NCBI GenBank assembly: GCA_015163855.1
Contig: JAAOIK010000041.1
Location: 1-33,483 of the forward strand
Direction: 5' to 3'
Length of the DNA stretch: 33,483 bases
DNA from: Pseudobdellovibrionaceae bacterium
GTDB taxonomy: Bacteria; Bdellovibrionota; Bdellovibrionia; Bdellovibrionales; UBA1609
Positions 3,395-32,691 of the stretch are shown piece by piece. Under the pieces are notes generated by a model. That model was not told the DNA's origin. It saw only the letters and a program-made list of their open reading frames with translations, and made no database searches. Numbering within the stretch: position 1 is the stretch's first letter; each line of letters starts with the position of its first letter. Position numbers and translations under genes: made by a program.

Positions 3395-5872
3395 TTATAA
3401 TCTAGAAAGGCTTTTTTCAATGTTATCTTTTAGTTGCAAAATGTTCTCTGACTCTCCAATAAAGTATAAAAAAGTATTATGTTGTTTAACATATTGCACC
3501 AATAAACTTTTCTTTTGAGGGCCACCTGTATATCCTGACCACACAGTAGGAGATATTTTTTCTATAGAAATTTGTGATTCTAAAAAATTATTTATACCTT
3601 TTATTTGTTTTTTGTTTTGCTTTTTTAAAAAATTTTTCTCTGTAACCGGCCCTTTTCGTAATGCAATTTGCTTATAAATTAATATATTAAGCTTATTAAC
3701 CTTCTCTTCTTTAGAAATAAGTTGATAATTTTTTAAACTAACTAATTTATACCCTTTAGCTTCTTCTAAAGAGTCTAAATAAAAGCCTTCTAAGTTAGAA
3801 AAGTAACTAGCTATTTGTATTTTTTTATCAACCGAAGATAAACCTCTCTTCTTTTTCTTAGTTACCTTAGGGGAAGAAGCAGGGCTTTCTATGTCTACCA
3901 CAAGAAGATTTATATCGTCTTTACTTATTTTATAACTAAAAACTCCAACCAATAAAGCAAATACCAACAAGCCTAACTGCCAATCTCTTTTTCTAACATT
4001 TTTCTTTTTTCTGTCTAATAATAACATTTTTATATTTTTTAAATTATCTTGAATGTTTATAGAGGCTACGCTTTCTACTTTACTAAAATAATATTTAGCT
4101 TCTTCTAAGTTGTGAAGCACTTCGTAGCACAAGGCTTTAGATAAATAAATAATATGGTTAAAGTTTGTAATGGTATCGGGAACATTTTTTAAATACACTT
4201 TCATTTTTTTCTTAATTACCTTGCGTTTTTCAACAGAGCCTTCTTGTGTATAAGCAATAACTAAAGCCCATAGTAAAAAAACTTGTTTTTTTGCATAAAT
4301 AATATAAGAATTGTTGATTTTTTCTAACAAATTAGTTAAGTCGCAACTTTTTAATTGTTCTATAATTTCATCTTCTATTAGCTGTTGCTTAAATTGGTTT
4401 TCAAACTGCTCTTGCTCTAGCACAGATTGATAAGAAACCCTCATCTCTTCTTTAGATAAAGTGCTGTACGCTTCTGAAATAGAGTTAAATATTTCTTCGT
4501 AAAGCCCTCGCTCTTCTTCCGAAGAAAAAAAGGCAGCATTATCGGGATGAAATTTTTTAGAAAGATGCCTATATGCTTGTTTAATGTTCTGCTCTGTTGC
4601 CTTTGCATCTAAATTTAACAATTCAAAATAATCTTTATTTTTATTAGCATTAGTAATAGTTAATAACTCTTTTTTACTTAGTTGTTTAACATCAGACAAA
4701 GCCAACACATTTAAAAGTAAAAATAAATAAACCGATTTTAAGCCTTCTTCTGTATTCATTAGTTCTAACTTTTCTAATTGAACACAAGTAGAAGATAATT
4801 CTGCTTTTAATTGAGAAAAATGATTTAAAAGTTCTTTATTAGCAATAGAGACAGGAAGCTGTTCTTCTCTTAAAATAACATAGTAAGACTTAAATCGTTT
4901 GAAAAAAGTATTTAAACACTTTTCTGTTAAATTATTAGAAACTCGTATTAAAACACGCTGCCATTCCTCGATAGAAAAATGACCCACTAAAGCAAAATCA
5001 GGCTTCTCTTCATCAACCCATTCGCAGCTTACTGGTTGATCATCAAATAAAGTTAAAAGTCTTAGTGCAATTTGTAAATTAACTGCTTTAAAAATTTCTA
5101 TCTCTGTAATTAAAGAATTTTTTAATAAAAAAGACCCAATGTTTTGCTTAGTATTTTGTGCTTCCAAACAATGCATTTCTATATCTTCATATTTTAATTG
5201 TGTTATTTTTGCCAGTAAAGCACCCAAGGTATTATTATCCTGCATCTTTACAAAAACAATATTACCTTCCTTATAATGAATAACTATTTCTTCGTCTTCT
5301 TTTCTTATTTTTAAAAAACCATTGGCTTTAATATGAAAAAAACTTGTTAAATGTTCTGGTAAATTATTAGCCACACATTTCATAGGTCGCTTTAAATTTT
5401 GGATAAATTGAGAATCTGTATAATTACTTCCAATTAAAGCTTGCTCTAAACAACTTAACTCCGACACTTTAGCTTTTTGTTTTGTTTCAGATATTTTATT
5501 TTTTTGGTGTTGCTCAATAACTAAAAACAAGTCGGCAATGGCAAAAGGTTTAGAAAATACTTTTAAAATTAATGGATGGTAAAGCAAACTGGCTTGAAAC
5601 TCTAGGTCTGTAAAAACCCCCGACATATAAATTACTGGTATTGCTAAACTACCTTTTTGCAATAAAGCAGAAACCCAATCTGCACCATTTCCACTGGGCA
5701 TAAATAAATCTACAATTAATAAATCTGGGCAAAAAGTTTGTAACTTATCTTCTGCGTCAAAAGTACTAGTGCACGCCATAGAATCATAACCGTAATCTTG
5801 CAAACTTTTTGACACAGAATCTGCAAATACTGCATCGTCATCTAAGACTAAAATTTTATACTTTTTAGGCAT
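3395..5872 (-). CDS. Membrane-anchored response regulator with receiver, PATAN (DUF4388) and J domains
   Basis: An 825-residue multidomain protein. Residues ~5-120 form a CheY-like receiver with an intact site: Asp11-13, phospho-acceptor Asp55 in LLIVDLFMP, Ser84 in YMSG, Lys108 in SKPF. Residues ~170-290 resemble a PATAN/DUF4388 domain (GFLKIRKEDEEI...YKEGNIVFV...GALL...SFLLKNSLI). Residues ~414-482 form a J domain with the HPD tripeptide at 442-444. A helical, TPR-like stretch follows (~490-620). After a basic cluster comes one membrane helix (~632-648), then ~175 residues predicted to be periplasmic. The start at 5872 (MPKKYKILVLDDD) begins directly at the receiver domain; an in-frame start at 5980 would run into the divergent trxA gene. 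J domains stimulate Hsp70 (DnaK), so phosphorylation may control chaperone recruitment at the membrane. That role is inference. Confidence 0.8.
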   Translation of the reverse strand: MPKKYKILVLDDDAVFADSVSKSLQDYGYDSMACTSTFDAEDKLQTFCPDLLIVDLFMPSGNGADWVSALLQKGSLAIPVIYMSGVFTDLEFQASLLYHPLILKVFSKPFAIADLFLVIEQHQKNKISETKQKAKVSELSCLEQALIGSNYTDSQFIQNLKRPMKCVANNLPEHLTSFFHIKANGFLKIRKEDEEIVIHYKEGNIVFVKMQDNNTLGALLAKITQLKYEDIEMHCLEAQNTKQNIGSFLLKNSLITEIEIFKAVNLQIALRLLTLFDDQPVSCEWVDEEKPDFALVGHFSIEEWQRVLIRVSNNLTEKCLNTFFKRFKSYYVILREEQLPVSIANKELLNHFSQLKAELSSTCVQLEKLELMNTEEGLKSVYLFLLLNVLALSDVKQLSKKELLTITNANKNKDYFELLNLDAKATEQNIKQAYRHLSKKFHPDNAAFFSSEEERGLYEEIFNSISEAYSTLSKEEMRVSYQSVLEQEQFENQFKQQLIEDEIIEQLKSCDLTNLLEKINNSYIIYAKKQVFLLWALVIAYTQEGSVEKRKVIKKKMKVYLKNVPDTITNFNHIIYLSKALCYEVLHNLEEAKYYFSKVESVASINIQDNLKNIKMLLLDRKKKNVRKRDWQLGLLVFALLVGVFSYKISKDDINLLVVDIESPASSPKVTKKKKRGLSSVDKKIQIASYFSNLEGFYLDSLEEAKGYKLVSLKNYQLISKEEKVNKLNILIYKQIALRKGPVTEKNFLKKQNKKQIKGINNFLESQISIEKISPTVWSGYTGGPQKKSLLVQYVKQHNTFLYFIGESENILQLKDNIEKSLSRL

Positions 5873-5910
5873 AAAATAATATCGGAAAAAGCCTTGAAAA
5901 ACTAAATTTT

Positions 5911-5931
5911 TTAGACTAACCTTAAGTCTAA
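5911..5931. promoter_or_regulatory. Inverted repeat between the divergent trxA and response-regulator genes
   Basis: TTAGACT and AGTCTAA form perfect 7-nt arms around a 7-nt centre in the 72-nt gap between two divergent start codons (5872 and 5945). It sits just upstream of the trxA ribosome-binding site (AGGGAG at about 5934-5939). It could be an operator shared by both genes or a stem-loop in the trxA leader. The sequence alone does not decide. Confidence 0.4.
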
Positions 5932-5944
5932 AAAGGGAGAAAAT

Positions 5945-6268
5945 ATGCCTACAAAAAAGACCACAGATCAAAACTTTCAAACCGATATTTTAGAAAGCAA
6001 GGGGCTTGTTTTAGTAGACTTTTGGGCAGAGTGGTGTGGACCTTGTAGAGCATTAGGACCTAAGTTAGAAGAAATTTCAGATGAGCAATCCGATGCAATC
6101 AATATTTATAAAATCAACATTGATGAAAATGCAAAAACCCCCTCTACTTATAATGTTAAAGGTATTCCAACTATGATCTTATTTAAAAATGGCCAAGTTA
6201 TGGATCAATTAGTAGGAAATCAGGATAAAGAAAGTATTTTAAATAAAATAAAAGAACACCAAAGCTAA
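5945..6268 (+). CDS. trxA: Thioredoxin
   Basis: A 107-residue single-domain thioredoxin with the classical active site WAEWCGPCRA (Cys31, Cys34) and the cis-proline loop KGIPTM (Pro75), followed by the usual ILFKNGQ and a final amphipathic helix. No signal peptide is visible, so it is a cytosolic disulfide reductase. The ribosome-binding site AGGGAG lies about 6 nt before the ATG, one of the better ones in this window. It is divergent from the response-regulator fusion and convergent with the LysM gene, with 7 nt between the two stops. Confidence 0.95.
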   Translation: MPTKKTTDQNFQTDILESKGLVLVDFWAEWCGPCRALGPKLEEISDEQSDAINIYKINIDENAKTPSTYNVKGIPTMILFKNGQVMDQLVGNQDKESILNKIKEHQS

Positions 6269-8048: not shown

Positions 8049-8049
8049 A
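8022..8049 (+). promoter_or_regulatory. Strong Shine-Dalgarno site with a five-codon leader ORF before comEC
   Basis: GGAGGT at 8022-8027 is the best ribosome-binding site in the window, yet it lies 21 nt before the comEC ATG at 8049. Four bases after it comes TTG, which opens a frame of five sense codons (TTG CTA TTT AAA AGC) ending in TAA at 8047-8049. That stop overlaps the comEC ATG as TAATG. The arrangement looks like a minimal leader ORF that delivers ribosomes to comEC by termination-reinitiation. An in-frame upstream start for comEC is ruled out by TAA at 8040. The function is inferred. Confidence 0.45.
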
Positions 8050-9041
8050 TGTTTCTGTTATTGCCCTTAATAGTACTAGCCTACTATTTTTCTGATAGCA
8101 CTTCCGCTTTTTTGTCCGAACCCATTTTAGCCCTCAGCAACTATTTACATAATTTTTGTTTAAGCTTCTCTAAAGCTAGTCCCTACGAGGGGCTATATCA
8201 AAGCTTAAGTTGTGGTAAAAAACTGCCCTCCCATTGGTATTCTCTTTTTGCCAACTCTGGCCTAATACATTTAATTATTATTTCTGGGCTACACATTTCC
8301 TTAATATATAGAAGCCTTACTCATTTACAGAGCAAAATTCTTCTTTTACCCAAAAGCATAACTATTAGCCTCAACTTATTCCTCTTACTATTATATACAT
8401 TTATGCTTAATATTTCGGCACCCGCTTTGCGCGCCTATTTTTTTCAAGTGATAAAGTTAATCAACAACTACGGCAAATTACATTGGCCCTCTAGCTATTT
8501 AGTTTTACTTTCTGTGCTATTAAGTTTGTTATTTAAACCCAGCTTATGGGCCTCCATTTCTTTGCTGTTAAGCTGGAGCGCAATACTTATTATTTATTTT
8601 TTACACCAAGTATTAAGCCACCCCTTAATTCCTTCTGTATATAAAAAGCCTTTTATAAAAATACCTATTCAAAGTGCCCTTTTATATTTATTTTTATTTC
8701 CTATTTTAAGTCAATTTAATAGCATTCATCCATTTAGTATTTTTATACAAATATTATTTACTCCCTTGTTATTACTGTTTTTAATTCCTTTATCTATTTT
8801 ACAATACTTTTTCTTTTCTAACTTGTTTTTTGCTGACTACCTATGGAAAATATTTTTTTCATTACTAACCCCCTTGCAAAACCTTTTAGTTAATGGCCCT
8901 ACTGCAGACAAACTCCCCTTGCTTTATTTTTGGATTTATACCATTAGCTTACAATTTTGTTTAAGCCTTTTTGAAGTTTATATTAAAAAATATAAGCTTT
9001 CTATGAAAAAAAATATACACCTTAAAAATCATGATTTATAA
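8049..9041 (+). CDS. comEC: ComEC/Rec2-type competence channel protein, membrane part only
   Basis: A 330-residue polytopic membrane protein. The signature NSGLIHLIIISGLHISLIYR at ~residues 70-90 is the hallmark of the ComEC 'competence' domain, which forms the channel that carries single-stranded DNA across the inner membrane. About eight hydrophobic segments follow, including SAPALRAYFF. The usual N-terminal OB-like DUF4131 domain is largely missing: only ~45 residues precede the motif region. The C-terminal metallo-beta-lactamase domain is encoded by the next gene in another frame, overlapping by 11 nt (9031-9041). Full-length ComEC is usually 700-800 residues, so this is a split and reduced version. 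The DNA-uptake role is inferred from family and from dprA in the same window. Confidence 0.85.
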   Translation: MFLLLPLIVLAYYFSDSTSAFLSEPILALSNYLHNFCLSFSKASPYEGLYQSLSCGKKLPSHWYSLFANSGLIHLIIISGLHISLIYRSLTHLQSKILLLPKSITISLNLFLLLLYTFMLNISAPALRAYFFQVIKLINNYGKLHWPSSYLVLLSVLLSLLFKPSLWASISLLLSWSAILIIYFLHQVLSHPLIPSVYKKPFIKIPIQSALLYLFLFPILSQFNSIHPFSIFIQILFTPLLLLFLIPLSILQYFFFSNLFFADYLWKIFFSLLTPLQNLLVNGPTADKLPLLYFWIYTISLQFCLSLFEVYIKKYKLSMKKNIHLKNHDL

Positions 9042-9834
9042 ATTTTTTACTTATTGCCTTTTTGTATTTTTATTTCTTTCCCCACACTATTTATCTATTA
9101 ATAAAATTACACAACCCGTATTTATTATATGGAATGTAGGGCAAGGCTCGTGGAGCAGCCTTGTTACCAATAAGGCTTGCTTTCATTTTGATATGGGAGG
9201 AGAAGGTTACAATAAAAACAACGCCATTATACAAAAATGTAAAACAAAACAAAACATTTTGCTTTTAACTCATTCTGATAAAGATCATATTAAATTTACT
9301 TATTTATTTAAAAAGAATCGAATAAAGTTTTGTTTATATAAAAAACCTCGAGAAAAAATTAAAAAGTATAATAAAAAATATTTGCGAAATTTACAATTAT
9401 GCACCAAACAAAAACTCCTTTTACTAAAAGATAATGGTATTGTCGAAATACCTTTTGCTATTTCAAAAAAAATAACTTTTTTTAAAAAAAAATCTACCCC
9501 ACTTTCTACTAATTTTTTAAGTAGAGTTTTTTTAATTAAAAATTTAATTCTTGTAGGGGGAGACAGCACAAAAAAGGCCGAATTATTATGGAAAAATAAC
9601 TTGCCTTACCCCGAAAAAATTAAATACTTTGTGCTAGATCATCATGGCAGTAAAAATAGTAATCATATAAAGCTTTTTCAAAAGCTAAGTCATTTAATAA
9701 TGGCCATTGCTAGTGCAAAAAAATCTAGATACAAACACCCTCATAAAGAAGTTGTAAACTTACTAAAAAAACAAAAAGTGGCGTTATTACAAACCGAAAT
9801 ATGGGGTTCTATTTATATATATTTAAAAAAATAA
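9031..9834 (+). CDS. ComEC-type metallo-beta-lactamase-fold protein, separately exported
   Basis: A 267-residue protein equal to the C-terminal domain of ComEC. It has IIWNVGQGSWSSLV, FDMGG, the metal-binding LLLTHSDKDHI, VLDHHGSKNSN and the late RYKHPHKEVVNLL motif, all in the order seen in ComEC proteins. Residues 1-22 are a hydrophobic signal or anchor, which would place the domain on the periplasmic side, where ComEC's domain also lies. In full-length ComEC this domain is proposed to degrade the non-entering DNA strand. Its own start and signal sequence suggest a real two-gene arrangement rather than a sequencing frameshift. It ends 36 nt before the convergent alanine dehydrogenase gene. 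Confidence 0.85.
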   Translation: MIYKFFTYCLFVFLFLSPHYLSINKITQPVFIIWNVGQGSWSSLVTNKACFHFDMGGEGYNKNNAIIQKCKTKQNILLLTHSDKDHIKFTYLFKKNRIKFCLYKKPREKIKKYNKKYLRNLQLCTKQKLLLLKDNGIVEIPFAISKKITFFKKKSTPLSTNFLSRVFLIKNLILVGGDSTKKAELLWKNNLPYPEKIKYFVLDHHGSKNSNHIKLFQKLSHLIMAIASAKKSRYKHPHKEVVNLLKKQKVALLQTEIWGSIYIYLKK

Positions 9835-20819: not shown

Positions 20820-21188
20820 ATGTCTGTTTTTAAATATTGGTTTCTTACCTATTCACGCAAACGCAAAGGTTTGCATACAAAGTTAAAGTTTAATTCTCAA
20901 CTTAACTCTCTTCATCTTAAAAAAAAATTACTATCTAATTCTTTGATTATAACCAGCCCTAAGGGGCAAGGGCTTATCGAATACCTTATTATTGTGGGCA
21001 TTATGGCCGTGGCCAGCCTTGGTGCTATTCGCTTACTTAACAAAACAGTAAATAGTAATTTTACTAACATTATTTACTCCCTACAGGGAAAAAGAAAAAA
21101 AGCAAAAATGGAAGCCCCTAAAGAAGGTTTGTACAAAAAAAAAGATTTTAATACTTTTATGAACGGAGCCGCCTCTACAGAAAAATAA
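20820..21188 (+). CDS. Flp-type (type IVb) pilin
   Basis: A 122-residue protein with a type IV prepilin motif at ~48-56: PKGQGLIEY, where cleavage after Gly would leave a mature N-terminus with Glu5 and Tyr6, as in Flp pilins. A hydrophobic helix follows (LIIVGIMAVASLGAIRLL). The mature part is ~73 residues and ends in a basic, then Gly/Ala/Thr-rich region. The leader before the cleavage site is ~49 residues, much longer than the usual 10-25, and strongly basic. This should be the major pilin of the Tad apparatus. It has the best ribosome-binding site of the block (AAGGAG), fitting high expression. Confidence 0.8.
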   Translation: MSVFKYWFLTYSRKRKGLHTKLKFNSQLNSLHLKKKLLSNSLIITSPKGQGLIEYLIIVGIMAVASLGAIRLLNKTVNSNFTNIIYSLQGKRKKAKMEAPKEGLYKKKDFNTFMNGAASTEK

Positions 21189-21192
21189 TATT

Positions 21193-21594
21193 ATGAATAT
21201 GCTTTTTTATTTTTTATTAAAAAAAACTTTACTTCAATCTAAAGGGCAAGCTTTAGTAGAATTTACTATTAGCAATCTTTTGTTTATAAGCCTTGTAAGC
21301 CTAGGTTCTTTACTTATTTACATTAGCTTTTTAAAGTACTTTAATCACACTGCTATTTACAATGCTACACTTTGCGTAGCCAAACAGCAGCCCATTTTAC
21401 TATGTAAGCATAATTTAAAAAAAAATATTCAATCCACCCTGCTATTTGGAAAATTAAACCAACTAAGCCTTAAAAAAAAATACAAAACTATCACCGGGTC
21501 TGCAAGGTGGACGGTAGCCCAATGGCAATTTCAAAAAAAGATTGCACTTAATACTGTTTCTTTAACCAAACACCTTCCAACAATAAAAGAGTAA
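21193..21594 (+). CDS. TadE-like minor pilin
   Basis: 133 residues. The prepilin motif KGQALVEFTISNLLF lies at ~16-30, with Glu at +5 of the predicted mature protein, then a long hydrophobic helix. TadE-like pseudopilins carry this GQALVEF form. The remaining ~85 residues are basic and contain two cysteines (CVAKQQPILLC). It starts 4 nt after the Flp gene stop, so they are cotranscribed. The name rests on motif, size and order; it may instead be TadF-like. Confidence 0.7.
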   Translation: MNMLFYFLLKKTLLQSKGQALVEFTISNLLFISLVSLGSLLIYISFLKYFNHTAIYNATLCVAKQQPILLCKHNLKKNIQSTLLFGKLNQLSLKKKYKTITGSARWTVAQWQFQKKIALNTVSLTKHLPTIKE

Positions 21595-21596
21595 TT

Positions 21597-22268
21597 ATGG
21601 GTATTGTATTATTTTTATCTTTTTTTCCAGTACTATTAAGCTTATGCCTAGGCTTTAATGTAAGCAGTCAAATTATTTACTACAAGCAAAAAGCGCAATA
21701 CATTTGCCAAAGGTATCATTTGGCTCATCAAAAACAGTTGCAAAAAAAAATAGCTCGGCTTTTACAACTTAATTTAAAAGCTAAAAAAATGCGTATTCAA
21801 CTTAAGCATGCAAAGCAGTCTTTAAAAATAGCTAAACTAAGCATGATTCCTCCAATTATTGCCACAGCGCAAAGTTTTTTAGCTTTTGTTTTAGCAAAAC
21901 AATTGGTTTTATTTACTAAACAAAAAAATATTTTATATTCGGCTATAAAACTATCTAATAAGGCAAAAAAACAATTAAAAAAACGCTTAAACCAAGCTTT
22001 TGATAAAAATAACATAAAAGATTATTCTTATAAACAAGTGGGCTTAGCCGTTTACCCTAAGCCCCTTCTGTCTTTTAGTCCTAGCTACTACCTTATGCCT
22101 GCCTTTAGTTATGCTCAAGGCAGTTACACTTTTTTTTATTTAAATATAAAAAATTTATTGCCTCCTTTGTTGCAAAGCCTTTTGCCCAATAGCCAATTAT
22201 TTAAAATAAAATGCTCTGCAACTTTAATGAAAAAAAAGAAAATAGAATTAACCCTATGGCAATACTAA
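21597..22268 (+). CDS. TadG-like pilus assembly protein
   Basis: 223 residues. The N-terminal hydrophobic helix begins at once (MGIVLFLSFFPVLLSLCLGFNVSSQ), resembling the TadE/TadG-family N-terminal segment but without a clear cleavage motif. It is followed by a very basic helical region, a second hydrophobic stretch (~75-100), more basic helices and a C-terminal domain. It starts 2 nt after the TadE-like gene. The context points to a Tad minor component; sequence support alone is weak. Confidence 0.55.
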   Translation: MGIVLFLSFFPVLLSLCLGFNVSSQIIYYKQKAQYICQRYHLAHQKQLQKKIARLLQLNLKAKKMRIQLKHAKQSLKIAKLSMIPPIIATAQSFLAFVLAKQLVLFTKQKNILYSAIKLSNKAKKQLKKRLNQAFDKNNIKDYSYKQVGLAVYPKPLLSFSPSYYLMPAFSYAQGSYTFFYLNIKNLLPPLLQSLLPNSQLFKIKCSATLMKKKKIELTLWQY

Positions 22269-22482: not shown

Positions 22483-23025
22483 ATGTGTAAAGTAAAAAAA
22501 ATAATAAGCGTATTATTACAATACAAAAATCATGGTGCTAAGTATTTAGAGCAGCTAGCACAAATGAGCTTAAAAAAACAATTATCTTTAGCCTTTCTTT
22601 TTTCTTTATGCTCTTTATTGTTTTTTCAAAAAGGTCAAAACCAAAAATTGTTATCCCAACCAAAAAATACCAAAAAATCGTGGAATATGAGCACTTTTAT
22701 CCCCGAAGGCTTTGTGCTTATTCCCATTACATTGCTTAATACAGAAAGCCTTAATGGCTTAATTGGAAAATGGGGGTGGGTTAGTTTGTACTCTAGCTTA
22801 ATGGGAGAAAACAAAAAGCCCATTGTGTCATCTATACGAATAATCAGAAGCCCTAAAAACCCCAACCAATTTGCTGTATTAGCTCCAGAAAATAAATCTT
22901 CATTAATTTTAGCCCATACAGCTCCCTTAATTGCTGTAATACAAAGCGAAAAAGCAAGAAGCAAGACCACTCGCTTTAATACTAAACCTATTATTAAAAA
23001 AAATAAAATTTTTATTGAAGATTAA
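22483..23025 (+). CDS. CpaB/RcpC-like pilus assembly protein
   Basis: 180 residues. A membrane anchor lies at ~34-48 after a basic N-terminus, followed by a periplasmic domain containing STFIPEGFVLIPITLLN and GKWGWVSLYS. The 'IPEGfvlvpI' phrase and spacing resemble CpaB/RcpC, which sits in the periplasm next to the secretin and helps stabilise it. The protein is shorter than typical CpaB (~250-300). The ribosome-binding site AGAGG precedes the ATG. I call it CpaB-like from motif plus locus. Confidence 0.55.
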   Translation: MCKVKKIISVLLQYKNHGAKYLEQLAQMSLKKQLSLAFLFSLCSLLFFQKGQNQKLLSQPKNTKKSWNMSTFIPEGFVLIPITLLNTESLNGLIGKWGWVSLYSSLMGENKKPIVSSIRIIRSPKNPNQFAVLAPENKSSLILAHTAPLIAVIQSEKARSKTTRFNTKPIIKKNKIFIED

Positions 23026-23064: not shown

Positions 23065-24201
23065 ATGTATAGTAAAATTTTTAATAAAAAATATAAATCC
23101 AAACCACCATACTTTATGGTCATTTTGCAAGTGCTTTTAGTTATACATATTAACTTTTTAACTATCCCCTACTCTTTGGCTGCAAAAAAAAACATAGGTG
23201 AAAATACTAAACCTTTAATTTTAGCTAATTCTGCCTTAGAAGAAAATTACCAAAGCTTTTTGCATTTTTCTCAATCTTACCACTCGTTTATTAACGAATA
23301 CTTAAAAAATCAACAGCTAAATACCAAGGTGCTAAAAAATCAATTTAAAACGGCACAAGATTTTTATTTTCAAGGAAAAATGGAATTAGCTAAAAAACAA
23401 TTTACTACTATTGTAAAACAAAAGTGGAATAACGACTGGACAGCGCAGCAAAAAAATTGGATTTACTTTTCTTTTTTAAGATTATCTCAAATTACTAATA
23501 ATTTATATAAAAAACAAACTTTACTAAAAGAAGCTATTGCTTTTGCTCCCGAAAAAAAGCCTAACCCTAAAGTTTTTGATCCTCCTTTTTTAAAAAAATA
23601 TAAAAAATTATATGCAAATACAAATTGGTTTTATATTACCGATTATTTAAAACTACAGAAATATGAAAAAATTATAATTAATGGCAAAGTATTTACTATT
23701 AATCCCAATATCAAAATACCCATAACCGCCTCGCAACCCTTTCGAGTAAGTCTTTTATCAAACAAAAGTGCAATATACTCCACAGTAATGAATTATGTTT
23801 CTTTTTCTTCTAAAGACTTTATACCAATCCCTTTGGTTACTGGAACTTGTGAAAATTTTAAAAATTATAGTAAGCCTTTGTATTCCATTTTTTTTACAAA
23901 CACTTGTATTAAAAACAGTCAAAAATTAGCGGCTAACTTTGCAACTAACTCGGTAACCAAAACCAAAGCCGAAGCCAAAACTAAAACCGAAGCCAAAGCC
24001 GAAACCGAAGCCAAAACTAAAACACCTCTTTCTTTATTTTTAAAACAAAGTTTAGCTCCTTTAAAAAAGAAAAAAGAAGAATTTAAGACTACAAAAAAAC
24101 AAATGTGGTTTTTAATGGCTGTAGCCGCTATTGCCTCTGTATTTATAGCTTCTCAATTTATTCAAAAACCCAGAACCCATAAAGAAGGTTTTGATGATTA
24201 A
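23065..24201 (+). CDS. Tad-locus periplasmic protein with repeat linker and C-terminal membrane helix
   Basis: 378 residues from ATG 23065, preceded by AAAGG. There is an N-terminal signal or anchor (VILQVLLVIHINFLTIPYSLAA), then a helical region with one TPR-like stretch (FYFQGKMELAKKQF). A beta-rich part follows (KIIINGKVFTINPNIKIPI, RVSLLSNKSAIYS), resembling a PEGA-like fold. Next come a Lys/Thr/Glu/Ala repeat linker and a C-terminal membrane helix (MWFLMAVAAIASVFIASQF). The two cysteines in the domain may pair. No established Tad name applies; it could support secretin or platform assembly. It overlaps the convergent amidohydrolase gene by 4 nt. Confidence 0.6.
   Translation: MYSKIFNKKYKSKPPYFMVILQVLLVIHINFLTIPYSLAAKKNIGENTKPLILANSALEENYQSFLHFSQSYHSFINEYLKNQQLNTKVLKNQFKTAQDFYFQGKMELAKKQFTTIVKQKWNNDWTAQQKNWIYFSFLRLSQITNNLYKKQTLLKEAIAFAPEKKPNPKVFDPPFLKKYKKLYANTNWFYITDYLKLQKYEKIIINGKVFTINPNIKIPITASQPFRVSLLSNKSAIYSTVMNYVSFSSKDFIPIPLVTGTCENFKNYSKPLYSIFFTNTCIKNSQKLAANFATNSVTKTKAEAKTKTEAKAETEAKTKTPLSLFLKQSLAPLKKKKEEFKTTKKQMWFLMAVAAIASVFIASQFIQKPRTHKEGFDD
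23958..24023 (+). repeat. Short tandem repeats encoding a Lys/Thr/Glu/Ala linker
   Basis: Units based on RCCRAA repeat here. The 17-mer GAAGCCAAAACTAAAAC occurs at 23971-23987 and again at 24007-24023, a 36-nt period. It encodes alternating Thr-Lys-Ala-Glu units just before the last membrane helix. Length changes in multiples of three would only alter the linker. Confidence 0.7.
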
Positions 24202-25547
24202 TTTTTTACAATAATCTTGCCATTAAAACATACTTCTAAAATTTTTTTATTTTCCTCATCTATTTTTGTGTAAGACTCACCCACCCACTTTTTATCAGGA
24301 TGCGTGTGATAGTATAACCACGGTTTACTAACATTTAAAATACCCCAAGTTTGAGCCTCTGTTAAAGCCTTGTTATTTAAAAATATATTAGGAGGTTCTA
24401 CAGGGCTATCACTTCCAAAATAAAATAACTGTTTTTGATCTTCTAAATCTTTCCACAAAAACAACTCCTTTAAAGTTTCTTTAGATAACTGATTTTTTAA
24501 CCAAGCTTTATCACTTAAAAAATGGCAAGGCTGCAGGTGGCAAATAATATTTTTATGCCGAGCCAATATTTTTAAGCTGTTTTTACTTAACAACTGCACA
24601 TGTTCTAAATTTAACTTTTTAATAGGTAGCCCTTTTTGGGTAAATTCTTTAATAACGGCTTCGGCAATGTCTAGTACTTCTTGGGAGGCTTTATTGCCAA
24701 TAACATGTACCGAAAAATCTAAGTTAGACATCCATGATTGTTTTAACATTTCTTTTAAGTCAGTAGGTTCTATTAAGGCTTTTGGTGATGCTAATTCTTT
24801 TTTATGATTTAAATACGCAGATTGTAGTAATGCCGTATTAGCCCCTAAAGAACCATCATAATACACCTTAACTCCGCAAACTTTAATATTTAATAAGCGT
24901 TCTTTGCGAGCTAATATAGCTAGCTGTAAAGCTTTAGAAAAATGCTGAGGGTTTTCGGCTCCCATATTTTGTTCAATTCTTAAACTTAGCAAAGAGTCTT
25001 GGTTTAATAAACTATTCCAATAATGAGGGTCGCAAGACATATCTCTTACATGGGTAAAACCTGCGGTGTTAAAAATATTTTGCGCAGCAATTATAGCTTC
25101 GCTCATTTGTTTTTCACTATAAGGTGGTAACTGATCTTGTACACTAGCCTTTAAGTTATCCTGCAATAGCCCTCCTAAAGAGGGGCAAGAAAATTTTTTT
25201 AAAGCAAGGCTATTTAACCAAGCACTATGCCCGTCTGAGCTAACAAAAAATACGGGGTACTCAGTAAAGTATTGGTCTAAAATACTAGCGTACGAGCAAT
25301 TCTCTTCTCCCCATAAAGTGTTTTTATTATCTTTCCATAAAGTTTTGTTCCATAAATGATCTTGCCAACCAAAACCAAATAAAACTTCACCTCGAAAATG
25401 CGAATCTTTAATATTTAATTGTAATAATTCTTTAGAAGACTTTAGATGAAAAAGGTTTAAAGTTTTACACTGTAAACCAGTTCCTAATAAATGAATATGA
25501 CTGTCGTAAACCCCTTTAATAACCAAGGGGGATTGTTTTTTTTTCAA
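24198..25547 (-). CDS. Amidohydrolase family protein (amidohydrolase_3/YtcJ-like), N-terminally short
   Basis: 449 residues. It has the metal-binding HxH in YDSHIHLLGTG near residue 17, FGFGWQDHLW, SSDGHSAWLNSLAL, KVYYDGSLGANTALL, SVHVIGNKA, LNLEHVQLL, CHLQPCHFL and the late Asp in YFGSDSPVEPPN. These are the ordered blocks of amidohydrolase_3 (YtcJ-like) hydrolases, whose substrates are mostly unknown. The first ~50 residues that usually form a beta-sandwich before the DxHxH motif are missing. The start is TTG 25547, 16 nt after the Gly-rich gene stop, with no in-frame ATG before residue 150, so the true start is uncertain. There is no signal peptide, so it is probably cytosolic. Confidence 0.8.
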   Translation of the reverse strand: MKKKQSPLVIKGVYDSHIHLLGTGLQCKTLNLFHLKSSKELLQLNIKDSHFRGEVLFGFGWQDHLWNKTLWKDNKNTLWGEENCSYASILDQYFTEYPVFFVSSDGHSAWLNSLALKKFSCPSLGGLLQDNLKASVQDQLPPYSEKQMSEAIIAAQNIFNTAGFTHVRDMSCDPHYWNSLLNQDSLLSLRIEQNMGAENPQHFSKALQLAILARKERLLNIKVCGVKVYYDGSLGANTALLQSAYLNHKKELASPKALIEPTDLKEMLKQSWMSNLDFSVHVIGNKASQEVLDIAEAVIKEFTQKGLPIKKLNLEHVQLLSKNSLKILARHKNIICHLQPCHFLSDKAWLKNQLSKETLKELFLWKDLEDQKQLFYFGSDSPVEPPNIFLNNKALTEAQTWGILNVSKPWLYYHTHPDKKWVGESYTKIDEENKKILEVCFNGKIIVKN

Positions 25548-25563
25548 AGCTACAGATTAAAAT

Positions 25564-28500
25564 TTAACGATTTCTTCGATGAGAGTTTCTTCCTTTTCTT
25601 CCTTTGTTGCTATTGTTGTCAAAGTCACCACGGTTGCCTTTGTTTCTTACTTCTTGGTCACAAGCTCGAAAATTACTAGCATAAGTTCCACACTCACTAG
25701 AGTTACGGCCACCGTTACCGCCAATGCCAATGGTTAATCCACCACCATATCCACCGCCATAGCCACCGCCAACGCTAATGCCGCCACCGATACCGCCGCC
25801 AGAAACATAATTACTATTACCTGTATTGTAAGGTGCTGTGGCAATTTGTTGCATCTGTAACTGCAATTGATAAATTTGTTGTTGCACTCCAGAGATCTGT
25901 TGGCCTCTGTCTTGTTTTTGTCTGTTAATGCTTTGTTGTTGTTGAATCCATGAATTAACATTTTGCTGATACTGTTGAGCTAATTGTAATTGATATTGTT
26001 GAGCTAAGTTAGCACCGCCTGTATTAAAACCAGCGCCGCCGCCGAAACCTGGGCGTCCACCGCCGAAACCGCCGCCGCCGAAACCGTTACCAAGTCTGCC
26101 GCCAAATCCTGGGCCACCGCCGAAGCCGTTACCAAGTCCGCCACCAAATCCTGGGCCGCCGCCAAATCCATTACCAAGTCCGCCGCCAAATCCTGGGCCG
26201 CCGCCGAAGCCACCGCCTGGAAAACCGCCAAATCCTGGTCCACCAAATCCATTGCCAAGTCCGCCACCAAATCCTGGTCCACCGCCAAAGCCGTTACCAA
26301 ATCCGCCGCCAAATCCTGGTCCACCGCCAAAGCCGTTACCAAGTCCGCCGCCAAATCCTGGGCCGCCGCCGAAACCGTTACCAAGTCCGCCGCCAAATCC
26401 TGGGCCACCGCCGAAGCCGCCGCCTGGAAAACCGCCAAACCCTGGGCCGCCGCCAAATCCTGGGCCACCAAATCCTGGTCCACCGCCAAATCCATTACCA
26501 AATCCATTACCAAATCCTGGGCCACCGCCGAAGCCGCCGCCTGGAAAACCGCCAAATCCTGGGCCGCCACCAAATCCGCCGCCTGGGCCGCCAAATCTGC
26601 CGCCACCAAATCCTGGGCCGCCGCCAAATCCGCCGCCGCCAAATCCTGGACCGCCGCCGAAACCGCCGCCACCAAATCCTGGTCCACCGCCAAATCCGCC
26701 GCCGCCGAAGCCTGGGCCACCAAGCCCCGCTCCTCCTAACATCATTTGACCATAAGGATTCACACCCATTTGAAATGGAGAACCTCCCGAAGGACCAAAC
26801 ACTTGAGCAGGGTAACCAAAAGGCCCCCCAACTACAGGCTGTCCATAAACATTAGAACCAGGCCCACCATTAGAGAAAAAATTTCCACCAGGTTGAATTT
26901 GAAATCCACCAATAGATTGCGCACAACCATAAGAACCCGAGTAACGAGAACTTCCTGCTAAGGTTCCATAAGCTCCCGGAGTATAATAGTTGCGATAATA
27001 ATATCCAGAGTTTCTAGCACCATAACCGCCAGAAGAAGAACGACTACCAGCATTAGAAAAGGCAGAGTTTACCATGCCATAGCCCATCAAGGCTCCTTGT
27101 ATTCCTAATAAACTAGATTGCCGAGATAAAAGCCCCGCATCAGTTTCGTAGCCTAAAGCTTCATTACTGTCTGTGGCATATTGAGCCGATTTGTCTCCCA
27201 GTGCACTAAATAACTTGGCACCGCCCCATGCTCCTAAAAGTCCAGCTCCTATTTGTAACCAAGGAGAGGTTTGTTTTTTTTGTACTTGAGCCTGCCCCCT
27301 TGGACTATAGTAAATAACCCTGGGTGTTACACCTCCAGAGGCAGCCGCTACGGAACAATCTTCGCAATGTGCCTCTACAGCACCGGTTAATTCTTCAATA
27401 TTGTCTGCATTTTTCACACTTCTGTGAAAGGCTTCTAAGTCAGTAACTTCATCAGATAAGTGATCCAGTTGCGCTAATAATTTAGAACATTCTTTTACTG
27501 CTGCTGCTTTTTTACCTACACTTTTTGCGTTAGCAATTTTGTTGCCCCATAAAGCGGTGTTAGAACATAAATAAGCCACTCCTTTTTTAGGAGCGGTACA
27601 AGCATTACTCGTCGTAGCCGATGAAGTTTTTGCATCAACACGGTTTTGCGAATAACACATATCATCTTGATCATAGCTGTCTTCATCGCACAACCATGAA
27701 CCCGATACCCACCCACTGTCTTCAGAACTATTATCGCCAGATTTTAGTTCGTCATTAAAGCCCTCTTCTGATGCCGATGCATAACAAGATTCTGCAGTTT
27801 GAGCATCACATATAGCTTGGCTAGGTGGTTTTTCTGAAATACTTTTTGTGCGTTGAAAAAGTTGTTGCTTCCGTTTCTTAGCTTGTTTGCGTGACTGCTT
27901 TTGTACCTCTAGTTTTGCTTGGATAGCAGTTTCATCTAAAGTAAAAGTTTTAAGCTGGCCTTTTAATGCACTAACTATTTTTTTAAGAACTTTTACCTTC
28001 GTTGCTTTAATTTTATTTAAAAATTTTGTTTTCGTTGAAGACTGATCTTTTTCTATCGGCTCGTTTCTCGCCTTTTTTAAGTTAGCCCGTGCCGTTTTTA
28101 TTTTTGCTTCTAAATCGGTAATTGATTTTACAGTTTTAGCAGGGTTTTCTGCGCTTTGCTTAGCTTGAGCTAAATCTTTTTTTGTTTGTGCAATATTTTT
28201 TTCTACAGATTTAAGTTTAGCATTAATATTTTCTAGCTCTTTTTTTACACCGACATTACATAAAGCGGGGTTAAAGTGTCCTGGATCTATTTTTTCTTGT
28301 ATAATTTCGCGTAAAGCTTCTGCATCTAAATAACCCTTTAAGCGTTTTTTTACCTTGCTTAAAACTTTTGCTTTCGCTTTATATTGCTTAGACAGATTTT
28401 TTTTAATAACCGATCGACTGTCTTTAATAATTCTTTTTTCTGTACAAGCTTTTCTTGCTGGCTGCATACCCGTTCCATAAGTAGAAGATCCACTATAATA

Positions 28501-28593
28501 AGAAGTGGCATAAGCAGGCACGCCCAAAAGGCTCATGCTAAATATTAATATACTTATATTGATAAATTTCATAAAACAGAATACTTGCTTCAT
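25564..28593 (-). CDS. Large exported Gly-rich repeat protein with coiled-coil N-terminal half
   Basis: 1009 residues from the ATG at 28593, which has a good ribosome-binding site (AAGGGA); a longer frame to 28662 has none. Residues 1-29 form a signal peptide (GVPAYA/TSYY). Residues ~45-270 are Lys-rich coiled coil. Residues ~280-440 contain an acidic stretch and several Cys. A hydrophobic Gly/Ala segment (~450-530) is followed by a Tyr/Ser/Gly stretch. Residues ~615-850 hold about 18 copies of PGFG in GGGPGFGGGLGNGFGG-type repeats. Then come a Gln-rich helix (~855-905), a second short Gly-rich block, and a basic Arg/Asn/Gly tail. It looks like a surface or extracellular structural protein. 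Position between the two halves of the pilus genes suggests an adhesive or pilus-related role, which is inference. Confidence 0.75.
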   Translation of the reverse strand: MKQVFCFMKFINISILIFSMSLLGVPAYATSYYSGSSTYGTGMQPARKACTEKRIIKDSRSVIKKNLSKQYKAKAKVLSKVKKRLKGYLDAEALREIIQEKIDPGHFNPALCNVGVKKELENINAKLKSVEKNIAQTKKDLAQAKQSAENPAKTVKSITDLEAKIKTARANLKKARNEPIEKDQSSTKTKFLNKIKATKVKVLKKIVSALKGQLKTFTLDETAIQAKLEVQKQSRKQAKKRKQQLFQRTKSISEKPPSQAICDAQTAESCYASASEEGFNDELKSGDNSSEDSGWVSGSWLCDEDSYDQDDMCYSQNRVDAKTSSATTSNACTAPKKGVAYLCSNTALWGNKIANAKSVGKKAAAVKECSKLLAQLDHLSDEVTDLEAFHRSVKNADNIEELTGAVEAHCEDCSVAAASGGVTPRVIYYSPRGQAQVQKKQTSPWLQIGAGLLGAWGGAKLFSALGDKSAQYATDSNEALGYETDAGLLSRQSSLLGIQGALMGYGMVNSAFSNAGSRSSSGGYGARNSGYYYRNYYTPGAYGTLAGSSRYSGSYGCAQSIGGFQIQPGGNFFSNGGPGSNVYGQPVVGGPFGYPAQVFGPSGGSPFQMGVNPYGQMMLGGAGLGGPGFGGGGFGGGPGFGGGGFGGGPGFGGGGFGGGPGFGGGRFGGPGGGFGGGPGFGGFPGGGFGGGPGFGNGFGNGFGGGPGFGGPGFGGGPGFGGFPGGGFGGGPGFGGGLGNGFGGGPGFGGGLGNGFGGGPGFGGGFGNGFGGGPGFGGGLGNGFGGPGFGGFPGGGFGGGPGFGGGLGNGFGGGPGFGGGLGNGFGGGPGFGGRLGNGFGGGGFGGGRPGFGGGAGFNTGGANLAQQYQLQLAQQYQQNVNSWIQQQQSINRQKQDRGQQISGVQQQIYQLQLQMQQIATAPYNTGNSNYVSGGGIGGGISVGGGYGGGYGGGLTIGIGGNGGRNSSECGTYASNFRACDQEVRNKGNRGDFDNNSNKGRKGRNSHRRNR
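26030..26745. repeat. GC-rich tandem repeats coding PGFGGG units
   Basis: Imperfect repeats of roughly 33-51 nt, built on CCGCCAAATCCTGG and ACCGCCGAAGCC-like units on the plus strand, fill this stretch. It is clearly more GC-rich than the rest of the window because it encodes Gly and Pro. The units carry synonymous and a few amino-acid changes (GLGN, GFGN, GRLGN, FPGGG), so they are not a recent pure expansion. Recombination between units would change protein length in frame. Confidence 0.85.
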
Positions 28594-28743: not shown

Positions 28744-28781
28744 TAATACATAAACAAAACTAGACTTTTGCTTATGTATTA
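28744..28781. promoter_or_regulatory. Long imperfect hairpin between the Gly-rich and histidine kinase genes
   Basis: TAATACATAA at 28744-28753 pairs with TTATGTATTA at 28772-28781. After one A-C mismatch, CAAAA (28755-28759) pairs with TTTTG (28766-28770), leaving the 6-nt loop CTAGAC. That is 15 of 16 pairs. It lies in the 256-nt gap between two divergent genes, so a terminator is not expected. It could be an operator, an RNA leader element for either gene, or part of a small RNA. Confidence 0.5.
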
Positions 28782-28849
28782 GACAATTTTTTACAATTTT
28801 TCCATTTTTTTGAGCAAAATAATTACAAATAGAGCCGATAAATTAATTA

Positions 28850-29995
28850 GTGAAGAAACAAAACTACTCCCCCTATAGTCCTCTTAATAAGAGTTATAAA
28901 ATTCTTTATATAGACCCTAGCGCTTCGTCTAGAGTAAAAATGAAAAAACTTTTATCAAATGATTTTGAGGTGTGCACCACTTCGTCTGACAAAGAAGCCT
29001 TAAGTCTAATTAAAAACACAAGCTTTTCATTAATTATCAGTCAAATGGATTTAAAAACCACCACAGGTATCGAAGTATTTAAACAAATAAAAACCACACA
29101 CCTTTCTGACAGCATTCGTATTTTAATAACACAACCTAACGCAGAAAAAACCACTTTAATTGAGGCCATTAACCATGGGTATATTTATCATTATTTAAAG
29201 CCAGACTACTCTACCGCAGAATTACAAAATTTAATTTACAAAGCCTTAAAACAATTTGAAGCAAAAATAACTATTGAACAAAAAGATTTAGAACTAAGCC
29301 AAGCCTATACTAACTTACAAGACTTAGACAAAGCAAAAACACAATTTATGATGCTTATTAATCATGAGTTAAAAACACCTCTTACTAATATTATTAATTT
29401 TATATCCTTATTAAAAGTATCTAAGCTAAATACAGAACAAGAAAAATATGTAAACTATATAGAAGCTGGCACAAGTATATTAAAAAAATTAATTACAGAA
29501 AGTTTAAATTTTATAGCTGCAGAAACAGGTCAACTACCATTAAATAAAAATAAAACTAATATTCCTGCTTTGCTAAAAAATCCTTTAGAAAAATTACAAG
29601 AAAAGCTAAAAAAGAAAAATCAAAGTTTAGATTTAAAAATTTGTGACCAAGCAATTCATGTGGATATAAAAATCATACAACAAATTTTAGATCACCTTTT
29701 ACACAATGCCATAAAATTTGGCCCCGAAAATAGTGAAATTTTGCTGCATGTAAGTTCTGTAAAAGATAAAAATTTAGGCTCTGTGCAATTTTCTATTGCT
29801 AATGCAGGGGGGAAGATTCCCGATAATGTTATAGAAAATATATTAAAGCCCTTTGTTTTAAATGAGTATAGTATGAACCACAGCCAAGGCTTTGGCTTGG
29901 GGTTAAGCCTTTGTCAGGCTTTGTTAAAGGTTCATGGGTCTAAACTACAATTTACTAACTCTAATACCTCTACCACGGTTTCTTTTTATTTATAA
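28850..29995 (+). CDS. Histidine kinase with an N-terminal degenerate receiver domain
   Basis: 381 residues. Residues ~16-130 have a receiver fold (KILYIDPSASSR; Thr94 in ILITQP; Lys117 in YLKPD), but the phospho-acceptor position in LIISQMDLKTTTG is Gln65 instead of Asp. A linker helix leads to HisKA with His172 in INHELKTPLTN, then HATPase_c with the N box HLLHNAIKFGPEN, the ANAGG loop, and GFGLGLSLCQALLKVHG. It should be a cytosolic, active autokinase with a pseudo-receiver used for protein binding. The start is GTG 28850, because no in-frame ATG precedes the receiver. It heads the CpaC-CpaF genes, so it may control the pilus. No membrane helix is visible. Confidence 0.85.
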   Translation: MKKQNYSPYSPLNKSYKILYIDPSASSRVKMKKLLSNDFEVCTTSSDKEALSLIKNTSFSLIISQMDLKTTTGIEVFKQIKTTHLSDSIRILITQPNAEKTTLIEAINHGYIYHYLKPDYSTAELQNLIYKALKQFEAKITIEQKDLELSQAYTNLQDLDKAKTQFMMLINHELKTPLTNIINFISLLKVSKLNTEQEKYVNYIEAGTSILKKLITESLNFIAAETGQLPLNKNKTNIPALLKNPLEKLQEKLKKKNQSLDLKICDQAIHVDIKIIQQILDHLLHNAIKFGPENSEILLHVSSVKDKNLGSVQFSIANAGGKIPDNVIENILKPFVLNEYSMNHSQGFGLGLSLCQALLKVHGSKLQFTNSNTSTTVSFYL

Positions 29996-30030: not shown

Positions 30031-30116
30031 CTGTATCGGAAAATTTACGGAAATATTTTTTTAACCTAAGCCTAAATCTCTCGTTTTTGTGGCTTATTTT
30101 TTGCCTTTGTTCTTTT

Positions 30117-31385
30117 ATGAAAAATTTTACTTCTTTATTAATAATAAATTTTTTTTTATTTATGCCCAACTCTTTGGCTTATGCAAAACCGCTTTCTTTT
30201 ACCAAAAAAATTATTATTGCCACTAATCACTCTTTTACTATAAAAACTCCTAAAACCACACAAATTAGTGTGCAAGGGGGAAAGTATATTCGCGTGCAAG
30301 ATTTTACTACATTTTTAAAAATTACAGGAAAGAAGAAAGGGACCAGTTACCTTCAAATAAAAAATAAAAAATGGATATTTAATGTAGTAAGCATTAGTGA
30401 TTATAACTATTATCAACGCATTAAAATGACCATTAAAGATTTTTGGGGGCCAAAAGTACAAATAGTAAATGGCCAAATTTATATTACAGGAAGCCTACAT
30501 CGGCTTAGTGATTGGCTAGCCATTGCTAATTTAACCTCTAATAGCAGTTATCAATTTCAAGCACGCATCGATTTTGACCTTCATAAAAAAATAACAGCCC
30601 ACTTAAAACAATTGTGTAAAAATGATTTTATACCTTGCCCTAATATACAATTAAACCCTTACCCTAAACTGCTTGCTCCTAAAAAAACCAAAAAATATTT
30701 AAAACAGTGGAATACTATTTTTAAAAAATGGGGACTAGCTATTGCTTTCACCCCTTTGGCTTTAAATTTAGAACCCAATATACAAATTCAAGTTTTAATC
30801 GCAGAGGTTAATAAAAATTTTCAAAAACAAATTGGGCTTCAGTGGAGCAACTCCATACAAGCACAACTTTTGCCGGCTTTTGCCACTAAAGACTCCCTTC
30901 CCTTAGCCTTAAAAATGTTGCAAAGTTCGGGGCAAGGACAAATTTTAGCTCAACCTAATTTATTAGTAAAAAGCGGAGCAGAAGCAAAATTTTTAGCAGG
31001 AGGAGAGTTTCCCATAAAAACTACCGGATTAAAAAGGCAACACACTAGTTGGAAACATTATGGAATTGCATTAAAAATTAAAGCTTATAGAGGTTATAAT
31101 AATATTATTGAAAACCATTTAAGCATAGAGGTTTCTGATATTGATAACTCCAATACTGTAGACGGTATCCCTTCCATAAAAAAAAGTCATATTAGTAGTG
31201 TTATTAATACCACTAGTAATCACTATATTGCTTTGTCTGGTTTATTAAAACATAACCAAGGTCATGATAGCGACAGCTTGCCGTGGCTTAGTCAATTACC
31301 TATTTTAGGAAACTTGTTTAAAAGTAAGAATTTTAAAAATTCTAAAACCGAGTTAGTTATTTTTTTTAAATCTACCCTAAAGTAA
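30117..31385 (+). CDS. cpaC: Type IVb pilus secretin CpaC/RcpA
   Basis: 422 residues from ATG 30117, with a signal peptide (IINFFLFMPNSLAYA/KP). The N-terminal region has HSFTIKTPKTTQISVQGGKYIRVQDF, the N-terminal domain of Tad secretins. The C-terminal secretin domain contains IQVLIAEVNKNFQKQIGLQW, GQGQILAQPNLLVKSGAEAKFLAGGEFPI, the lip and beta-strands, and ends LPWLSQLPILGNLFKSKNF...TELVIFF. These are the secretin signatures; the order and cpaF next to it make it CpaC/RcpA. It forms the outer-membrane pore for the Flp pilus. A TTG at 30087 is an alternative start. Overall length is slightly short. Confidence 0.9.
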   Translation: MKNFTSLLIINFFLFMPNSLAYAKPLSFTKKIIIATNHSFTIKTPKTTQISVQGGKYIRVQDFTTFLKITGKKKGTSYLQIKNKKWIFNVVSISDYNYYQRIKMTIKDFWGPKVQIVNGQIYITGSLHRLSDWLAIANLTSNSSYQFQARIDFDLHKKITAHLKQLCKNDFIPCPNIQLNPYPKLLAPKKTKKYLKQWNTIFKKWGLAIAFTPLALNLEPNIQIQVLIAEVNKNFQKQIGLQWSNSIQAQLLPAFATKDSLPLALKMLQSSGQGQILAQPNLLVKSGAEAKFLAGGEFPIKTTGLKRQHTSWKHYGIALKIKAYRGYNNIIENHLSIEVSDIDNSNTVDGIPSIKKSHISSVINTTSNHYIALSGLLKHNQGHDSDSLPWLSQLPILGNLFKSKNFKNSKTELVIFFKSTLK

Positions 31386-31392
31386 TACTATT

Positions 31393-32568
31393 ATGCCCAA
31401 TACCAATCTTACTTTTTTACCTATAGAAAAGCCAATGCCCACATTGAAGGTAACTGGTTGCCTGCTTACTGCTGCAAAAAAATTAGAAAATCTTTTAAGG
31501 CAACACCAGTCCATCGATTTAGCCAGCACAGATCATATTAACAACCCTCTTTATAATAAAAAAATGTTGCAACAGTTAATAGAAAAAAACTTAAGCGACT
31601 TAAACATGCAAGAGCAAGAGCGTTTATTACAGGATTTTTTAATTTATGGCCCTCTGCACACTTTAATAAGTAACGAAGGCATTACAGAAATATTATGTAA
31701 CGGTTATAATGAAATTTATTACGAACTTGATGGAAAAATTATAAAACACCAAGATGTTTTTTTTTCCGAACACAATTATCAATCGTTTATTCAAAGAATG
31801 TTGCTAGAAACGGGGCAACAAATTAATTTAGAACAGCCTTTTTCTGATGGTAAATGGAAAAATTTTCGCTTACATATTATTCAACCCCCTTTGGCACACA
31901 ATAATACTTTAATTAGTTTACGAAGAAAGGCCAAAGAAAATTGGACTTTAAAAAAATTAAAAAACCTAGGTAGTATCACTAAAAAAGAAAGCGACTATTT
32001 ACAAAATTTAGTAAAAACCAAAAAAAACCTTTTAATTATTGGCCCTACTAGTAGTGGAAAAACCGCTTTAATAAATGCTCTTTTGCAAGAGGTTGAACAC
32101 ACAGAAAGAGTTTTGTGTATAGAAGATACTGATGAAATTAGTTCTCCCAATGCTTTGTCGGGAAAACTATTAACCCGCAATGATCCTCAAAAACAGCTAA
32201 GCAATTATAGTCAAACCGATTTACTAAAACAAAGCTTGCGCATGAGGCCAGACCGATTAATTTTAGGAGAAATTCGCTCTGACGAAGCAAAAGATTTTTT
32301 AATGATGCTTTCTACAGGGCATCAAGGCTGTATGGCTAGCCTCCATGCCGATCAAGCTCATCAAGCTTTGTGGCGGTTAGAAATGCTTATACAAATGGCA
32401 GCCCCGCAGTGGAATAGTAGCAGCATTCAAAAGCTCATTAGCCTGAGTTTAAATTATGTTATTTTAATAAAAAAAAGCGGTAAACAAAGGCAACTGAAAA
32501 ATATTTACGAAATAAAAACTTATGAAGATGGCATTGGTTTTATATTAGAAAAAATTAATCTAAAATAA
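31393..32568 (+). CDS. cpaF: Type IVb pilus assembly ATPase CpaF/TadA
   Basis: 391 residues, a secretion ATPase of the GspE/VirB11 superfamily. The N-terminal domain has FLIYGPLHTLISNEGITEILCNG, the region typical of CpaF. Walker A is GPTSSGKT at 217-224, followed by IEDTDEI, the Walker B region RLILGEIR (288-295) and the His box GHQGCMASLHAD (309-320). It powers pilus extension from the cytoplasm. It starts 7 nt after cpaC. The tadB and tadC platform genes that usually follow are not present; the next feature is a tRNA. Confidence 0.95.
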   Translation: MPNTNLTFLPIEKPMPTLKVTGCLLTAAKKLENLLRQHQSIDLASTDHINNPLYNKKMLQQLIEKNLSDLNMQEQERLLQDFLIYGPLHTLISNEGITEILCNGYNEIYYELDGKIIKHQDVFFSEHNYQSFIQRMLLETGQQINLEQPFSDGKWKNFRLHIIQPPLAHNNTLISLRRKAKENWTLKKLKNLGSITKKESDYLQNLVKTKKNLLIIGPTSSGKTALINALLQEVEHTERVLCIEDTDEISSPNALSGKLLTRNDPQKQLSNYSQTDLLKQSLRMRPDRLILGEIRSDEAKDFLMMLSTGHQGCMASLHADQAHQALWRLEMLIQMAAPQWNSSSIQKLISLSLNYVILIKKSGKQRQLKNIYEIKTYEDGIGFILEKINLK

Positions 32569-32616: not shown

Positions 32617-32691
32617 TGGGATGTCGACAAGTGGTAAGTCAACAGATTTTGATTCTGTCATTCGCAGGTTCGAATCCTGCCATCCCATCCA
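32617..32691 (+). tRNA. tRNA-Gln (anticodon TTG)
   Basis: A complete cloverleaf. Acceptor TGGGATG pairs perfectly with CATCCCA. The D arm is GAC-AAGTGGTAA-GTC. The anticodon arm is ACAGA-TTTTGAT-TCTGT, giving anticodon TTG (Gln). The variable loop is CATTC, and the T arm is GCAGG-TTCGAAT-CCTGC. CCA is encoded at 32689-32691. The only tRNA found, it lies 48 nt after cpaF. Confidence 0.97.

Follow-up and report, generated by a model that had tools for sequence, protein, structure and literature searches.

An exported glycine-repeat protein family linked to a flp3-type Tad pilus locus in the class Bdellovibrionia

The window, by which we mean the whole 33,483-nucleotide stretch analyzed here, is a single contig from a 1.24 Mb genome that is 95.5% complete. 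It carries a Flp-type pilin (GQGLIEYLIIVG; 20820-21188, +), recognized from its conserved position and a weak class III signal peptide match, followed by two TadE/TadG-like genes (21193-22268, +), assigned from sequence and position, and a CpaB/RcpC-like gene with an FIPEGFVLIPI motif (22483-23025, +), assigned from sequence and synteny. Farther along are a response regulator-histidine kinase (28850-29995, +; Pfam, conserved neighbor), an RcpA-like secretin (30087-31385, +; PF00263, 5.6e-33), and a TadA/CpaF-type ATPase (31393-32568, +; PF00437, TIGR03819), with a tRNA gene (32617-32688, +) directly downstream of the latter. The locus thus unites a Flp pilin bearing the G/xxxxEY motif, a secretin, and a TadA ATPase, and judging from its sequence it is a Tad pilus locus. 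No T2SSF match for the TadB/TadC platform genes was detected on the window contig; seven T2SSF matches lie elsewhere in the genome, which also has seven T2SSE-type ATPase matches. One of these (G000:C43:19887-20948, L088) contains an internal TAA stop, reflecting either a pseudogene or an assembly error. Elsewhere in the window, ComEC (8049-9834, +) seemingly occupies two overlapping ORFs instead of one, the first with the Competence domain and the other resembling a metallo-beta-lactamase (DHHGSKNS), and an 861-residue protein (3395-5980, -) is an unusual fusion of a response regulator, a DUF4388-like part, and a DnaJ domain.

Between a same-strand amidohydrolase (24198-25547, -; PF07969), its usual downstream neighbor by synteny, and the divergent kinase-secretin-TadA genes lies the gene of interest, which encodes a Gly-repeat protein of 1009 residues (25564-28593, -). 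Its open frame in the ORF list extends over 28662-25564 on the minus strand, and the likely start is the in-frame Met at 28593, which immediately precedes the signal peptide and is kept as the start in the sister species; purifying selection on relatives further supports the assignment. The sequence-only reading had given the correct coordinates without naming the strand; the plus strand over the same interval contains 44 stops. Its proposal of an exported protein of about 1000 residues agrees with the signal peptide found here and across the family (residues 1-29, ..VPAYA|TS; 28507-28593, -; family consensus AxAQ|xWGxGxYGG).

AlphaFold2 modeled helices at residues 57-252, 356-395, and 444-479, disorder at 483-862, a helix at 865-919, and a disordered tail. 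The N-terminal part (residues 57-252; 27838-28425, -) is helical, as had been proposed, but a helical bundle or hairpin describes it better than a long coiled coil, and the B. bacteriovorus relative has a matching hairpin modeled with high confidence (pLDDT about 90+). It is followed by an acidic linker and Cys-rich helical part (residues 255-418; 27340-27831, -), defined by composition and by Cys columns conserved among 48 members; residues 255-345 hold 16 D/E and 6 C, in line with the acidic Cys-containing part anticipated earlier, and the conserved cysteines include a CxxC at 410/413. A glycine-zipper-like helix (residues 444-479; 27157-27264, -) was considered as a transmembrane segment and rejected: its hydropathy is only borderline, and no clear membrane span was found in it. 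Beyond the repeats are a Gln-rich helix (residues 865-919; 25837-26001, -), which was confidently modeled (pLDDT 85-89) and is conserved in the family, and a Gly-rich basic tail ending in Arg (residues 926-1009; 25567-25818, -); both had been foreseen, the tail being basic by composition. The protein lacks a membrane anchor, a lipobox, and any known adhesin domain. Searches of Pfam, NCBIfam, and PDB sequences returned no informative matches, those in the PDB being low-complexity chains only, and tblastn against phage records gave no match. Foldseek with the window and B. bacteriovorus models, both of low confidence outside the helices, found nothing at E<=0.001 among PDB and viral models.

The repeats themselves (residues 620-858; 26020-26736, -) consist of 64% Gly, 17% Phe, and 9% Pro, are predicted to be disordered, and contain exactly 18 PGFG units (residues 627-848), matching the earlier count of about 18. 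The repeat is no chance feature, since its DNA reaches a Tandem Repeats Finder score of 687, far over the threshold, and the longest stretch free of D, E, K, and C spans 335 residues, compared with a mean of 35 and a maximum of 73 in 500 shuffles. The GC content climbs to 59% at 26001-27000 against about 32% across the window, owing to the Gly and Pro codons of the repeat, and two ORFs overlapping this region (26004-26723, -; 26252-26749, +) were judged to be repeat by-products.

Searching with the full window protein yielded a clear relative in the sister species only (E 4e-171) and repeat-dominated matches elsewhere, and its scan of named genomes gave no match; a scan of the same set with the HD100-like protein matched named Bdellovibrio genomes, among them B. 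bacteriovorus kdesi with a full-length match of 77%. We relied on a core profile (A2) built on the conserved non-repeat region, with a detection threshold of E<=0.001. It matched 108 of 141 genomes of the order and 110 of 144 of the class, and at that sensitivity none of the 225 phylum genomes outside the class (369 phylum genomes searched, 110 positive in total). The window genus (G000 and the sister species, G001) lies on a long branch of the tree and fell short of the A2 threshold, so its membership was given a test of its own: a profile-profile comparison that left out the repeats matched the window and sister proteins to the other 46 members with 99.1% probability over 189 columns. On the evidence of this match, the cysteines, and synteny, the window protein is a member of the Bdellovibrionia Tad-locus Gly-repeat family.

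The family layout comprises a signal peptide, WGxGMYGGMQxC, a helical part, CxxC, GWPTxPY...GLYGA...GC, GGAFGYP, GPWGM, Gly-rich repeats, a Gln-rich helix, and a Gly-rich tail. Together with this layout, seven cysteines, a charge-poor disordered stretch of Gly and hydrophobic residues, the Gln helix, and the C-terminal Arg are conserved family-wide; the window protein retains the cysteines, with one displaced by a few alignment positions. Arg is the last residue in 39 of 48 members, compared with 3% Arg among the preceding 30 residues (alignment A3, counted regardless of relatedness), and to our knowledge no known sorting signal explains it. The remark that no named system has such a layout holds insofar as the family databases contain no description; the layout is nevertheless typical of the class and not unique to this genome. 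The AlphaFold2 models of the window and B. bacteriovorus members agree in a helical N-domain, a further helix, a long disordered stretch, and a Gln-rich helix, so that disorder of the repeat stretch is predicted alike in both. Paired copies also occur: G015 has two adjacent family copies in tandem (L081 7141-10309), and G131 has two family matches on one contig.

The gene is under purifying selection, with dN/dS between the HD100-like and Tiberius-like sequences of 0.089 overall, 0.009 in the N-domain, and 0.134 in the repeats, where repeat-unit indels separate the strains. PGFG is genus-specific and is not what the family conserves: the partner of Gly is Met in most relatives, and also Phe, Ala, or Leu. 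A long charge-free Gly/hydrophobic stretch nevertheless occurs in nearly all members while its hydrophobic residue drifts among M, F, L, and A, as expected if the bulk chemistry of the repeat is what selection maintains. Such a composition supports the suggestion of a low-complexity, cohesion-prone repeat. One member of the 33 in alignment A4 hits the Collagen repeat model (4e-14), its repeat having drifted to a collagen-like pattern.

Across the family, the gene keeps company with pilus genes, as the sequence-only reading had surmised from one contig. In 44 of the 52 fetched loci, one or more Tad genes are found no farther than about 9 kb away, a near-universal synteny; the eight exceptions include four second copies in the genus Bdellovibrio and two loci from short contigs. 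The usual order is FolD, Flp pilin, TadE/G-like, CpaB-like, (amidohydrolase), Gly-repeat gene, sensor kinase, secretin, and TadA, with the kinase as divergent neighbor in 34 of the 52. Two loci (L025 11090-13534; L030 7790-10213) have an extra exported-looking protein of 807-814 residues between the repeat gene and the kinase. Absence of the protein from relatives with the same pilus genes had been named as evidence against it; the opposite was seen. A TadA-type match is present in all 17 same-family genomes that have no core match. Ten of them have a contig end beside TadA or secretin (two of the ten retaining an N-terminal gene fragment), four have the gene in divergent form, the locus of G020 is rearranged and the gene missing from it, and two have no identified orthologous TadA contig. 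Absence is thus for the most part caused by assemblies breaking at the repeat.

Two Bdellovibrio genomes, one HD100-like (G061) and one Tiberius-like (G048), contain a Tad-locus copy and a second copy elsewhere, which adjoins an LD-transpeptidase-like gene and, in some strains, a kinase pair as well. In a quick tree with partial support, the second copies group with the Bdellovibrio Tad-locus copies, and they therefore look like duplicates within that lineage; as they lie far from any Tad genes, the role of the protein may be pilus-independent. By gene order, the B. bacteriovorus Gly-repeat locus matches the flp3-type locus, unlike the predation-essential hit/Tad locus. Published numbers place flp3 at bd3297, the secretin at bd3306, and cpaF at bd3307 (PMC3818213, PMC5430801), which makes bd3303 or bd3304 the probable identity of the Tad-locus copy; literature under the gene numbers so deduced for HD100 yielded nothing on the Gly-repeat protein. 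We rejected homology with Bd0109 of the hit locus, which is described as a YD/Rhs-repeat protein (PMC3818213), since synteny points to the flp3-type locus; Pfam detected no Rhs repeats (PF05593) in the Gly-repeat protein. In laboratory HD100, flp3 is silent and its deletion has no effect on predation, and loss of other Flp pilins leaves attachment unaffected (PMC5430801). That flp3 is both silent and dispensable speaks against a straightforward contribution to predation in the laboratory.

The divergent intergenic region between the repeat gene and the kinase spans 256 bp, with no Rfam match. It contains a 38-bp palindrome (TAATACATAAACAAAA..TTTTGCTTATGTATTA; 28744-28781) with arms 94% complementary, a candidate operator found at one place only in the window genome and one in the sister genome; it is conserved in the sister species, where the single mismatched base is swapped between the arms. 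Directly upstream of the kinase gene is a FliA-like promoter, CAAA-N15-GCCGATAA (28815-28841, +), which reads ACCGATAA in the sister species. The window genome encodes FliA, and the HD100 flp3 promoter has been reported to be unresponsive to FliA. Both elements are candidate regulatory sites, offered as leads only.

The export signal, the family, and the locus are well supported, whereas surface location, adhesion, oligomerization, and co-regulation with the divergent genes are inferred. We tentatively favor, with a probability of roughly 0.45, a self-associating, disulfide-stabilized scaffold or adhesive of the envelope or surface that accompanies the flp3-type Tad pilus in the class Bdellovibrionia. 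The protein would serve the FolD-linked (flp3-type) Tad locus as an accessory specific to it, produced when the divergent kinase-secretin-TadA genes are on and exported via Sec. Its cysteine-stabilized N-terminal helical domain may serve as an anchor or stalk, the charge-poor stretch of Gly and hydrophobic residues would be disordered and self-associate as stickers and spacers, and the Gln-rich helix could link several chains. At the site of Tad pilus activity on the cell surface or outer envelope, the assembled chains would then act as a cohesive and elastic glue or scaffold.

A different assignment, unlikely though deserving weight, is a protein that stays periplasmic and surrounds the secretin or the base of the pilus, either as a structural sleeve or as an assembly factor, with a pilotin- or TadD/RcpB-like role. 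The repeat gene always adjoins secretin and TadA in Tad loci, the protein combines a Sec signal with conserved cysteines, and the window locus has no other pilotin-like gene; however, long disordered repeats with hydrophobic stickers are unlike known pilotins, Foldseek gave no fold match, and the second Bdellovibrio copy has no adjoining secretin. Those extra copies, together with L056 and L062, which have no nearby Tad gene, would suit a class-wide protein with a general envelope or surface function, whose Tad position is inherited gene order without a functional link. We consider this improbable, because the order is kept across many genera despite heavy sequence divergence, and the second copies group with Bdellovibrio Tad-locus copies as apparently derived duplicates.

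The Gln- and Gly-rich low complexity and the export signal also recall a functional amyloid or biofilm fiber subunit, its fiber built from these two parts; with AlphaFold2 giving disorder and helix without strands, and no match to known amyloid families (curli/Fap) in Pfam or NCBIfam, we regard it as quite unlikely. More speculative still, the Gly-hydrophobic repeats could condense into an FG-nucleoporin-like gel around the secretin, a selective or lubricating seal for the sliding pilus and, if true, a bacterial counterpart of the FG barrier. That the gene is a spurious ORF from GC-rich repeat DNA might be suspected from the long ORFs in other frames over the repeat, but class-wide conservation of the frame and of its cysteines, with a dN/dS far below 1, refutes it for practical purposes.

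Whatever its exact role, the family is class-wide, previously undescribed, and associated with a second Tad-type pilus in predatory bacteria, including the model predator B. bacteriovorus. The persistence of the gene in a reduced genome suggests a real use in nature, even though laboratory HD100 keeps the pilin gene of the locus silent. Such genes are missed as short-read assemblies often break at the repeat.

Compared with known Tad (tight adherence, type IVb) loci, the window shares the Flp pilin, TadE/TadG-like, CpaB-like, secretin, and TadA genes in one locus, adds the Gly-repeat protein, amidohydrolase, and kinase, and lacks the platform (TadB/C). It is a different locus from the predation-essential TAD operon bd0109-0119; Bd0109/Bd0108 of the hit locus likewise place an exported protein beside Tad genes in Bdellovibrio, through a different gene and locus. 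FG-repeat nucleoporins likewise carry FG-type motifs at intervals along a disordered chain poor in charge, a likeness of composition only and not of homology; most Gly-repeat members carry Gly-Met, and the compartment is another. Eukaryotic Gly-rich adhesives and silks, such as the tick-cement GRP, which is described as a phase-separating Gly-rich protein (PMC11794139), share the disordered Gly-rich chain, again in composition only; unlike them, the Gly-repeat protein has its repeats fused to a Cys-stabilized helical domain.
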